A DNA stretch of 32,094 nt from Nitratifractor sp. (GTDB lineage: Bacteria; Campylobacterota; Campylobacteria; Campylobacterales; Sulfurovaceae). The translations under genes and the position numbers were made by a program. The stretch covers positions 1 through 32,094 of the forward strand of contig NZ_WFQN01000050.1 of the NCBI RefSeq assembly GCF_015487065.1, given 5' to 3'. Positions 428-22,876 of this stretch are shown in pieces (the first letter of the stretch is position 1; every line of letters starts with the position of its first letter). The notes beneath the pieces are model-generated. The model saw only the letters and a program-made list of their open reading frames with translations. It made no database searches and had not been told where the DNA came from.

Positions 428-1564
428 ATGCAACGACGTGACTTTCTCAAAACGATCTCCATCGCGGCTGCCGCCGGACTCGCCGGCGGTACTGCCCCTC
501 TACGGGCCGCGGAGTCGACCTATGAAAGTGAAGAGAAGATCTCTCAGGAAAAGCGGCGTTTTCGGGTCCGCTACCGTTTCGATCTGAAAAACCCCGACGG
601 CAAAGGCCCCTATCCCGCCCGCCTCTGGAACCCCATGCCCTATCAGGCCCCCTGGCAGAACGTACGGATCCTGAACTTCAAGGGCAACTACGACCACTGG
701 AACCTCAACGACGACAACAGCTACGACGTCTCCATCCTCTATGCCGACTGGAAGAAGAGCCCCCGGCCCAAGACGCTGGAGATCGAGATGGAGATCGAGA
801 CCCGCTACCGCAGCGTCCCGCTCAAAGCCATCGAAGCCGCCAGCAAGCGCAACCTTCCCATCCCGGTAGAGGTCCGACGCTTCCTCAAACCCACCGCCCA
901 CATCCCCACCGACGGCAAGATCAAGGCCAAGGCCGACGAACTGACCCGCGGGGTCAGCGACCGCTTCGAAAAAGTCAAACGAATCTACGATTGGGTTACC
1001 CAGGTGACCTTCCGGGATCCCAAGGTGATCGGCTGCGGTTCCGGCGATGCGGGCAAAATGATGAATAGCGGCTATTTCGGCGGCAAATGTACCGATATCA
1101 GCTCTCTCTTTGTTGCCCTGCTGCGCGCCGCGGGAATCCCCGCCCGGGAGGTCTTCGGAATCCGTCTGGGGCTCTCCCACTACTCCAAAGCCCTGGGCAA
1201 GGCGGACGATAAAGGTTTCGCCGAGATCAGTACCTGGCAGCACTGCCGGGCCGAATACTACATCCCCGGCCTCGGCTGGATCCCCAGCGATCCGGCGGAC
1301 ATCACCAAGCTGGAGCTGGTCGAAAGCCGCAAATACAACGACCCCAAAGTCCAGGAGCTCAAACGGCGCTACCTGCACGGCTGGGAGATGAACTGGGTCG
1401 GCTTCAACTGGGGCCGGGACTTCATCCTCTCCCCCAAACCGGAGCAGTACCCCATCAATATGCTGGGCTACCCCTATGCCGAAGTGGAGGATGAGCCGCT
1501 GGATTACTACTTCCCCAAAGAGTTCGCCTATCGCATCACGTCCCAGGAGATCACGAAACGGTGA
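428..1564 (+). CDS. Tat-exported transglutaminase-like domain protein
   Basis: Starts MQRRDFLKTISIAAAAGLAGG (twin-arginine signal). Transglutaminase-like core GGKCTDISSLFVALLRAAGIPAREVFGIR...WQHCRAEYYIPGLGWIPSDPAD. Start at 428 preferred over 302 because of the signal peptide and the AAAGGAA upstream. Confidence 0.85.
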   Translation: MQRRDFLKTISIAAAAGLAGGTAPLRAAESTYESEEKISQEKRRFRVRYRFDLKNPDGKGPYPARLWNPMPYQAPWQNVRILNFKGNYDHWNLNDDNSYDVSILYADWKKSPRPKTLEIEMEIETRYRSVPLKAIEAASKRNLPIPVEVRRFLKPTAHIPTDGKIKAKADELTRGVSDRFEKVKRIYDWVTQVTFRDPKVIGCGSGDAGKMMNSGYFGGKCTDISSLFVALLRAAGIPAREVFGIRLGLSHYSKALGKADDKGFAEISTWQHCRAEYYIPGLGWIPSDPADITKLELVESRKYNDPKVQELKRRYLHGWEMNWVGFNWGRDFILSPKPEQYPINMLGYPYAEVEDEPLDYYFPKEFAYRITSQEITKR

Positions 1565-2256
1565 AACTCGACTGCCGCAACCTCGACTGCCCGGTGCCGG
1601 TTCTTCGCACCAAGGAAGCGCTGGAAAGCCTGCAGGAGGAGATCCTGGACGTAGAGCTCAATACCCTCTCCTCCATCGAAAATGTCAAGCGTTTTGTCAA
1701 GAGTCAGGGGCTTTTTTTCGAGGAGAAGAAGCTAGGGCCCAGACATGTGATTCTGAGCATTGTCAAGGGATATGAATGTACGCTGGAGCCTGCGGAGACT
1801 GTCACAGCCGATGACAACAGAGTCACCCGGGAGCTTGACACCTCCTTCTCTGAGGGGAGGAGCCCTGACGAAGCGCTTCGGGCCGCCCAGATCGCCCAGG
1901 CGGCCCAGGAGAAAAAAGAGGCCCAGAAGTTTTATATGTTGCTTTTCGGGGGAATCGTCTCGGCGATCCTCGCCAGTACCTGCTGTCTGGGGCCGCTGCT
2001 CTTTCTCCTCTTCGGAGTCAGTGTGGGTTCTTTGAGCTTTCTGCAGTGGTTCGCGCCTTACCACGCCTGGTTCAGCTTCGCCGCTGTCGCCGTTGTCGGC
2101 TGGCTCTGGTTCGACTGGTCGCGAGGACGCAAAGAACGCATCGCCTGCGCCACCAGTCTCTGTAAAAACTATACGCTCTATCTGACGCTGGGAACGCTCT
2201 TTGTAGCCGTTATGGTCAGCTATCCCTGGTGGATGGGATGGGTGATGGGAGATTGA
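1561..2256 (+). CDS. Fusion of an N-terminal TusA/YedF-like sulfurtransferase domain and a C-terminal MerT-like membrane transporter domain
   Basis: N-terminus MKLDCRNLDCPVPVLRTKEALE has the CPxP motif of TusA/SirA/YedF. Residues ~125-231 (GGIVSAILASTCCLGPLLFLLFGVSVGSLSFLQWFAPYHAWFSF..., then CATSLC loop) match the MerT layout: CC in TM1 and a Cys pair in the TM2-TM3 loop. GTG start overlaps the previous stop (GTGA). Confidence 0.85.
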   Translation: MKLDCRNLDCPVPVLRTKEALESLQEEILDVELNTLSSIENVKRFVKSQGLFFEEKKLGPRHVILSIVKGYECTLEPAETVTADDNRVTRELDTSFSEGRSPDEALRAAQIAQAAQEKKEAQKFYMLLFGGIVSAILASTCCLGPLLFLLFGVSVGSLSFLQWFAPYHAWFSFAAVAVVGWLWFDWSRGRKERIACATSLCKNYTLYLTLGTLFVAVMVSYPWWMGWVMGD

Positions 2257-2299: not shown

Positions 2300-2599
2300 A
2301 TGAGAGTTTTTTTGATTTTCGCTTGCTTGATGGGGACTCTTTTCGCGGGAGAGAAGATCGCCGTGATCGACGTAAAGGGAATGACATGCCCCCTCTGCAC
2401 CGTAGCGGTCAAACGCTCCCTCAAAAAGACGCCCGGCGTCCTCAAAGCCAAAGTCAAGCTCAATACGAAGAAAGCTACCGTACGCTTCCGGGATGATCTC
2501 AATACCAGCCGTCTGCTGGAGGCGATCAAAAAAGCGGGTTACGAAGGGAAGATTCTCTCCGTCACTCCTGCGAATTCAGCAGAGGTTCCACAACAATAG
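2300..2599 (+). CDS. MerP-like periplasmic heavy-metal-associated (HMA) domain protein
   Basis: Signal peptide MRVFLIFACLMGTLFA, then GMTCPLCTVAVKRSLKKTPGVLKAKVKLNTKKATVRF, with the CxxC HMA motif in a MerP-like context. Confidence 0.8.
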   Translation: MRVFLIFACLMGTLFAGEKIAVIDVKGMTCPLCTVAVKRSLKKTPGVLKAKVKLNTKKATVRFRDDLNTSRLLEAIKKAGYEGKILSVTPANSAEVPQQ

Positions 2600-21646: not shown

Positions 21647-21718
21647 AATGTAGTCCTTTGTGTAAAATAGGGCGGAATTCTATCCTAAAAACCCTGAAAG
21701 GTTCTTAAGAGCCGGACG

Positions 21719-22876
21719 CTACTCCTCATCCTCTTTGAAATCATAGGCATCCAGCTCCTCCAATATTTTCGCCTCCTCGGTATGTTTGGCCGGCGTTTTG
21801 ACCGTTCCGCGACCGATGCCCTCCATCCAGAGTTTGAGATCGGAGGGAGAGGTGGCATACTCCAGAGCCGTCTCTTCCGAAATGATCCCGTCCACAACCA
21901 GATCGTAAAGATGCTGGTCAAAGGTCTGGGATTTATAGATGTCCCGACCTTCAGCGATGGCATCCGGAATCTCAAAGTCACGGTTTTCCGCTATCAATTC
22001 AGCAATTCTCGATGTCTGGACCATCACTTCGACCGCGGCAATCCGCCCTCCGTCGATAGTCGGGACCAGACGCTGGGAGACCACCCCTGCCAAAATCGAA
22101 GCCAGGGAGAGTCGCACGCGGTTTTGCTCCTCTTCGGGGAACATGCCGATGACACGGTTGATGGTCTCTTTGGCATCGAGGGTATGCAGGGTCGAAAAGA
22201 CCAGGTGTCCGGTGTTAGCGGCATGCAGCGCCAGATCCACCGTCTCCACGTCCCGCATCTCCCCGACAAGGATAATATCGGGGTCTTCCCGAAGTGCGGC
22301 GGGCAGCGCATCACGGAAAGAGTTGGAATCCTGACCGATCGACCGCTGGTTGATCAAACACTTTTTGTCGTGGTGAACGAATTCGATGGGATCTTCCAAT
22401 GTGATGATATGTTTATAGTATTTTTCATTAATTCGATTCAGAATCGCCGCCAAAGTGGTAGACTTCCCGCTTCCCGTTACCCCGGTGACCAGGACCAGGC
22501 CTCGTCCTTTGTCGGCAAAGCTTTTGATCACCTCCGGCAAACGGAGCTCCTCAACACTGGGGATATCTGACGGAATCAAACGCATCACGATACTGAGGCC
22601 GTCCATCTGGTAAAAGATATTGACACGGAAGCGGTTCTTCTCATCCAAAACATAGGCCAGATCGAGCGACTTGTGCTCCTTGAGCTGTACATACTGCTCC
22701 GCCGTCGTGATCTCCCGTACCAGCAGATTGACTTTGCTCGCATCCAGAACTTCATCGCCCAGTTTTCTCAATATCCCGGTTATCCGTGCCCGCGGAACCG
22801 TGCCCGCTTTGATGTGCAGGTCACTACCTCCGTGGGCCACGAGGGTTTTAAGGTATTTGTTCAGTTTATCTTTCAT
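21719..22876 (-). CDS. pilT: PilT-like type IV pilus retraction ATPase
   Basis: GGSDLHIKAG, GLVLVTGVTGSGKSTTLAAILNRIN, ITLEDPIEFVH, ALREDPDIILVGEMRDVETVDLALHAANTGHLVFSTLHT. Confidence 0.88.
   Translation of the reverse strand: MKDKLNKYLKTLVAHGGSDLHIKAGTVPRARITGILRKLGDEVLDASKVNLLVREITTAEQYVQLKEHKSLDLAYVLDEKNRFRVNIFYQMDGLSIVMRLIPSDIPSVEELRLPEVIKSFADKGRGLVLVTGVTGSGKSTTLAAILNRINEKYYKHIITLEDPIEFVHHDKKCLINQRSIGQDSNSFRDALPAALREDPDIILVGEMRDVETVDLALHAANTGHLVFSTLHTLDAKETINRVIGMFPEEEQNRVRLSLASILAGVVSQRLVPTIDGGRIAAVEVMVQTSRIAELIAENRDFEIPDAIAEGRDIYKSQTFDQHLYDLVVDGIISEETALEYATSPSDLKLWMEGIGRGTVKTPAKHTEEAKILEELDAYDFKEDEE

Follow-up and report, generated by a model that had tools for sequence, protein, structure and literature searches.

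A TusA-MerT fusion protein in a selD-dependent gene triad of Campylobacterota, a candidate route for selenium uptake

What is carried by a protein in which a TusA domain is joined to a MerT-type transporter, next to the gene of a selenophosphate synthase? The question arises from a stretch of Nitratifractor sp. DNA of 32,094 nucleotides (the window), which is contig C50 of a metagenome-assembled genome of 1.86 Mb (88.6% complete, 6.7% contamination). Nucleotides 1561–2256 of the forward strand were found to contain a single ORF of 231 amino acids, whose GTG start shares four bases with the stop of the preceding gene. The ORF is uninterrupted, as the initial annotation had described it, and both of its Pfam domains lie above the gathering cut-off, TusA at amino acids 2–56 (E 5.8e-13) and MerT (PF02411) at amino acids 125–228 (E 2.2e-11, 44.3 bits against a cut-off of 32.9). 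The YedF-type TusA domain (amino acids 1–70, nucleotides 1561–1770), assigned from Pfam, the AF2 model and the TusA tree, contained a CPVP motif with Cys10 at 1588–1590. It is followed on the same strand by a linker (amino acids 71–118, 1771–1914), of which amino acids 72–100 were modelled at low confidence, and by a MerT domain with three membrane helices (amino acids 119–231, 1915–2253; Pfam and AF2). The remaining cysteines, like Cys10, were found where the annotation had placed them: Cys141-Cys142 in the first membrane helix (1981–1986), and Cys196 (2146–2148) and Cys201 (2161–2163) in the basic loop between helices 2 and 3. In the AF2 model the TusA part adopted a b-a-b-a-b-b fold (pLDDT about 80) and superposed on YeeD of the YeeE-YeeD complex 8k1r with 1.4 A over 69 columns.

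Among the NCBIfam models, selenium_YedF was the top match for the N-terminal part of the fusion (amino acids 3–87, 52 bits against a cut-off of 110). The match to this model (TIGR03527) stopped at profile position 86 of 194, and the C-terminal DsrE domain of YedF was lacking; the TusA domain with its CPxP motif and the adjoining selD are features of YedF. The MerT part contained the Pfam domain and the cysteine pair of the first helix, and it scored below the cut-offs of the curated mercury models (PRK13751, 41.7 bits against 150; MerTP, 44.5 against 180).

The fusion was present in 17 of 397 sampled Campylobacterota genomes. Five of them belong to the window's genus (with that of the window counted), five are Nautiliaceae-like and four Sulfuricurvum-like, and the other three represent two further families. 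When 84,980 species were scanned, at least 20 full-length fusion loci were recovered, all of them in Campylobacterota and none outside it among the matches listed; at least 33 non-redundant fusion loci were collected once duplicates had been removed. No TusA-MerT fusion was found among 136 Aquificota genomes. Absence from close relatives had been named beforehand as the mark of a frame artefact of assembly. The fusion recurred instead in separately assembled genomes of the genus, with identities of 90% (G238), 81% (G058, in a single contig) and 68% (G003), and also in Nautiliaceae, in Sulfuricurvum and in other families; the genus includes a single-contig genome of 2,101,285 bp. An assembly artefact is thus ruled out. 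A seemingly split gene in one genome (G347) was only a contig break, with the two halves at contig ends. The dN/dS of the whole gene was about 0.11–0.13 against two relatives and was low in each half, which indicates that the fusion gene is under purifying selection. The linker of about 50 amino acids, which had been presented as a feature of the protein, is long only in the window's genus and its near relatives (27–47 amino acids); most other fusions contained 3–20.

The CPxP motif of TusA, the cysteine pair of helix 1 and one loop cysteine (Cys196) were invariant in 19 aligned fusions, and the helix 1 pair was conserved in all 55 MerT domains of the set. The second loop cysteine of the window, Cys201, was substituted with serine in L043, L059 and L061 and was not kept in Sulfuricurvum. 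The C-x4-C pair of this loop, which had earlier been taken for a working pair, is thus present in the window but not conserved as a pair; among the fusions only Cys196 is invariant.

The fusion was found to be the middle gene of a conserved triad, in which an exported transglutaminase-like protein is followed by MerT and by an exported HMA/MerP-like protein. The upstream gene of the window (428–1564, forward strand) encodes a Tat-signal protein of 378 amino acids from the ATG at 428, in an ORF that opens at 302 (Pfam Transglut_core, 7e-22). Its predicted catalytic residues, located by alignment, are Cys221 (1088–1090), His272 (1241–1243) and Asp288 (1289–1291), so that the Cys-His-Asp triad of the PF01841 superfamily is intact. 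In an alignment of 14 such proteins C203, C221, H272-C273 and D288 were invariant, which adds the two further conserved cysteines Cys203 and Cys273. The model of the protein (pLDDT 80, pTM 0.81) had its nearest folds in 3isr, a putative cysteine protease, and in TgpA (6g49). The downstream gene (2300–2599, forward strand) encodes a small HMA/MerP-like protein (Pfam HMA, 1.3e-15) with a signal-peptide-like N-terminus and the CxxC motif Cys30-Pro-Leu-Cys33 (2387–2398); it scored 52 bits with the NCBIfam MerP model, below the cut-off.

Every fusion locus with enough sequence contained the transglutaminase-like gene upstream, mostly with a Tat motif, and a small HMA gene with a signal peptide downstream; triad loci with MerT alone, where the sequence reached far enough, likewise had the HMA/MerP-like gene next. 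Neighbouring genes of the triad often overlap by 1–4 bases, and the gap between the upstream gene and the fusion or MerT gene was short or negative in nearly all loci. The initial annotation had rightly noted selD next door and had overlooked both partners, as well as the TusA-less MerT proteins that occur in the same cluster. The latter were found in Arcobacteraceae, Sulfurospirillum, Campylobacter, a Helicobacter-like genome and others (names assigned from grouping). Since most triad MerT proteins lack TusA, the system does not depend on the fusion, and TusA is an addition to something wider. The triad loci also included tandem HMA genes (L138:7031-7587) and tandem transglutaminase-like genes (L141:5640-8122). 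Selenocysteine within the transglutaminase or MerT genes of the g56/g23 species was considered and rejected, as the ORFs are complete and the TGA in question appears to be their normal stop.

A search of Desulfobacterota with the transglutaminase profile matched 31 of 247 genomes, and among 18 loci read, MerT and HMA lay beside the transglutaminase-like gene only at L170. The genome concerned (G646), sampled from the phylum to which a Desulfobulbaceae MAG belongs, carries selD at another site, and this triad means that the arrangement is not confined to Campylobacterota. The remaining loci look like a paralogous group. selD was present in 17 of the 18 cases, a figure of little weight as there was no selD-lacking group for comparison.

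The distribution of the triad was compared with that of selD in the 397 genomes of the class, of which 284 contained selD above the curated cut-off and 113 did not; some genomes are incomplete, and an absence there may reflect a gap. The transglutaminase-like family, being long and cleanly detected, served as the triad marker, with a profile built from the same family. The marker was found in 115 genomes, that is, in 115 of the 284 with selD and in none of the 113 without it. A crude Fisher test gave P 4e-21 but takes no account of kinship, and the comparison was therefore made genus by genus. Eight genera contained species both with and without selD, and there the marker was present in 45 of 50 genomes with selD and in 0 of 18 without (stratified exact P 3.6e-8). 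For the fusion alone, four such genera gave P 0.0025, the fusion being absent from their selD-lacking members. All 17 fusion genomes contained selD. Co-occurrence of the fusion with selD in Campylobacterota had been named as a test, and a wide spread in genomes without selenium genes would have spoken against the idea; the triad marker and the fusion both behaved as selenium-utilisation traits, occurring only together with selD.

The triad was found in genomes that use selenium only for selenouridine (SelU without SelA; G074, G217, G390 and G308) and in genomes that use it only for selenocysteine (SelA without SelU; G004, G225, G133 and most Arcobacteraceae tested). It therefore follows SelD, the step that both uses have in common. 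One genome of the window's genus (G131) contained SelU and no SelD, SelA, transglutaminase marker or fusion; either this SelU has no supply of selenophosphate, or the assembly has a gap. The best selD hits fell into two groups of scores, about 420–454 and about 340–373 bits. The second type was present in all fusion genomes, and some relatives without the triad had only the first, possibly reflecting two SelD lineages with different suppliers.

In the window, the N-terminal 59 codons of selD lie on the reverse strand at 1–178, cut by the contig end, with an in-frame UGA (Sec19) at 124–122 (translation MRELDNSHKLTKFVKAAGUAAKLGPGDLSHIL...). A full selD with one TGA was found in the same genome (G000:C58:20918-21835). 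Nucleotides 1–291 of the window and the region near 21682–21970 of that contig have about 290 bp around the selD start in common, at 96% identity, and then diverge, probably because strains are mixed in the assembly. In the collected set, sel genes adjoined the fusion in 24 of 33 non-redundant loci among the matches listed, and in the window itself. selD was divergent to the triad in the window's genus (close relatives L031, L032, L035 and L053) and in Arcobacteraceae, downstream on the same strand in Nautiliaceae, upstream with selU on the same strand in Sulfuricurvum, and convergent in G074 and G225; selA/selB lay beside the triad in L055, L060 and L143. With several unrelated arrangements, the inheritance of one linkage is hard to credit. 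The selenium link is strong: the triad is restricted to species able to activate selenium, and it is carried by many selenium-using relatives of Campylobacter. In Nautiliaceae and certain other Campylobacterota (L037-L041, L056, L057, L074, L076 and L082), selD or YedF also had as its neighbour a DsrE-like protein of 118 amino acids (CGTCQARCG). The gene of this protein adjoins the fusion operon in Nautiliaceae, and the protein could be an additional carrier in the same pathway.

In the TusA tree the main fusion group, with the domain of the window, stood beside Nautiliaceae YedF (97/96), and the Sulfuricurvum fusion group stood with Sulfuricurvum/Helicobacteraceae YedF (99/94). The MerT and transglutaminase trees split the two fusion groups likewise. 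Forcing all fusions into one clade was rejected on the transglutaminase tree (p 4e-6) and was not rejected on the short TusA tree (p 0.11); two separate fusion events are thus likely without being proven, and one clade could also have been broken up by lineages that lost TusA. TusA was probably joined to MerT twice, independently and from local YedF proteins. If so, the repeated joining of a YedF-type carrier to the transporter argues for direct hand-over between the two.

Several known systems resemble parts of the triad. The MerT and MerP proteins of mer operons have the MerT fold, the cysteine pair of helix 1 with a loop cysteine, and an adjacent exported HMA protein with CxxC, whereas no merR, merA or merB was seen beside the triad; its partners are the Tat-exported transglutaminase-like protein and sel genes, its proteins fall below the NCBIfam MerT/MerP equivalog cut-offs, it depends strictly on selD, and TusA is fused to its MerT. 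YedF, the selenium-associated TusA and DsrE protein, has an N-terminal TusA domain with CPxP, adjoins selD and, in its local forms, stands beside each fusion group in the TusA tree, but the fusion contains a membrane transporter in place of the DsrE half, and Nautiliaceae retain a separate YedF and the DsrE-like protein of 118 amino acids. In YeeE-YeeD (TsuA-TsuB) and YeeED a membrane importer is coupled or fused to a TusA-family domain whose CPxP cysteine acts on the substrate; there the transporter is of an unrelated fold, the substrate is sulfur, and TusA comes after the transporter in the solved fusion construct, whereas it is N-terminal here. The candidate selenium transporter YedE/FdhT (NF033796) also lies beside selD and a TusA-type protein, in selenium users only, but belongs to a different family. 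A MerT domain is tied to selenium, as selenocysteine, in the MerT/CopZ fusion-like selenoprotein (NF045683) and in MerP/MerT-like selenoproteins; the fusion contains no selenocysteine, has its HMA protein separate, has a TusA domain that NF045683 lacks, and scored 26.8 bits with that model against a cut-off of 375. In the MerTP fusions (NF033556) and the MerT-rhodanese-like proteins of L146 and L147 the extra thiol domain is HMA or rhodanese-like, and their loci showed no transglutaminase-like gene. The latter two proteins (L146:5343-6221 in G311, 292 amino acids; L147:5017-6015 in G264, 332 amino acids) contained MerT and a C-terminal region that looked rhodanese-like by eye, and so represent another MerT joined to a chalcogen-carrier-like domain; their neighbours, also by eye, were an ArsR-like regulator and a methyltransferase-like protein, with a DsrE-like protein in L146. 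A MerT-HMA (MerTP-like) fusion of 200 amino acids, with a further HMA match beside it, was present at L145:384-986 (G307).

No description of the triad, of the TusA-MerT fusion or of a role of either in selenium use was found in the literature covered, which leaves out most subscription journals. The selenium genes of Lin et al. (2015) comprised YedE, YedF, DUF3343 and a LysR regulator, and in their text, which contained no mercury term, transglutaminase came up solely as one of the partners of YedF in STRING (PMC5322559). MerT-like and MerP-like selenoproteins, containing selenocysteine, are included in surveys, and metal-resistance roles were suggested for most of these transporters (PMC9312934, PMC2398784, PMC13188914).

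We consider, with a probability of roughly 0.6, that the fusion is the membrane part of a selenium acquisition system derived from a recruited MerP/MerT-type thiol relay. In the established model of MerT, Hg(II) passes from two MerP thiols to the cysteine pair of helix 1, then to a cytoplasmic cysteine pair and to MerA (PMC5715351). We infer selenium as the cargo here, together with the inward direction, the chemical form that is moved, the sequence of transfers and what the transglutaminase-like protein does. The Tat-exported transglutaminase-like protein may free or convert a periplasmic selenium compound, which is the weakest part of the model. The selenium would then be bound at the CPLC motif of the HMA protein by its two thiols, as the vicinal cysteine thiols of thioredoxin hold selenium after reaction with selenite (PMC8538045), and would pass to the cysteine pair in MerT helix 1 and across the membrane to Cys196. 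By the positive-inside rule, the basic loop of Cys196 should be cytosolic, on the same side as TusA. From there, by analogy with YeeE-YeeD, selenium would move to Cys10 of the attached TusA domain, acting as a perselenide carrier, and on to SelD. The thiosulfate importer YeeE has as its obligate partner YeeD, a TusA-family protein with a catalytic CPxP cysteine, and natural YeeED fusions occur, for example in Corynebacterium (PMC11073785); the TusA-MerT fusion would in the same way keep a toxic intermediate bound and channelled. Protein-bound delivery and selenium carriers have long been postulated because the Km of SelD for selenide lies in the toxic range (PMC8538045). We lean slightly towards a substrate-channelling import of this kind, from thiol to thiol through the transglutaminase-like, HMA and MerT proteins (with TusA where fused) to SelD, with no free intermediate.

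Some results were counted against import. As many as 169 of the 284 selD-containing genomes lacked the triad marker, and the triad is therefore one solution among several. The inspected triads of Campylobacter and Sulfurospirillum did not adjoin sel genes, a MerT of 90 amino acids in three Campylobacter-family genomes contained no loop cysteine at all, and the AF2 model of the fusion (pTM 0.34) does not fix the orientation of TusA relative to MerT. In favour of import, none of the 17 fusion genomes had YedE/FdhT, the usual candidate for selenium transport, above the cut-off; TusA-less triads coexist with FdhT in several genomes, which was counted against import, so that the triad is no general replacement of YedE/FdhT.

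An opposite direction of transport, with excess reactive selenium moved out or held at the membrane, would track selD just as strictly, and YedE was allowed to be a possible selenium exporter in the 2015 comparative study (PMC5322559). We regard such export or buffering as unlikely, since inward transport is what has been described to date for MerT/MerP relays, the TusA domain sits where an importer would unload, and the exported HMA protein looks as if it served for capture. Another cargo is conceivable as well. Many of these bacteria are sulfur metabolisers, and the TusA family and the structural match to YeeD would suit a sulfur carrier on a MerT that imports thiosulfate or polysulfide, with the selD link arising from shared regulation. 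This would leave the absence from all 113 selD-lacking genomes, many of them close relatives, unexplained; the TusA domain is moreover YedF-like, as all 19 fusions matched selenium_YedF and only one matched the YeeD model, and sulfur import appears decidedly doubtful.

Mercury is the cargo that the MerT and HMA domains themselves suggest by their family matches, and the Aquificota MerT homologues inspected lay in operons of a CsoR-like regulator, MerT, MerP and a MerA-like protein (gene names by eye). The triad could accordingly be a mercury or soft-metal uptake and resistance module that is merely near selenium genes or shields selenoproteins from Hg. No merA or mer regulator was recognised in the triad neighbourhoods read, only 2 of the 17 fusion genomes had a MerA above the cut-off, unlinked and elsewhere in the genome, and the fusion had no match among 72,556 plasmids. 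Uptake of Hg without MerA would harm the cell, and the strict dependence on selD within genera also speaks against this reading, which is disfavoured as quite improbable. Compared with the Aquificota operons, the triad of Campylobacterota may represent the same transport pair, in which selenium partners would have taken the place of MerA. Least credible of all is a role in the maturation of a selenocysteine-containing formate dehydrogenase or another periplasmic selenoprotein, rather than in selenium supply. The N-terminus of the transglutaminase-like protein does weakly match a Tat model of the formate dehydrogenase region (23 bits against a cut-off of 48), but the four fusion genomes without SelA, and hence without selenocysteine, have kept the triad, which there adjoins SelU-SelD in Sulfuricurvum and selD in G074.

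To our knowledge, which here follows the reviews, a dedicated selenium uptake route has not yet been found in prokaryotes. Judged by sequence and distribution, the cluster is a good candidate for such a route, and a concrete one for both the uptake and the delivery of selenium, found in cultured genera. It gives a new marker for selenium use, and if the selenium import reading is true, parts of mercury uptake would have been reused for an essential trace element.
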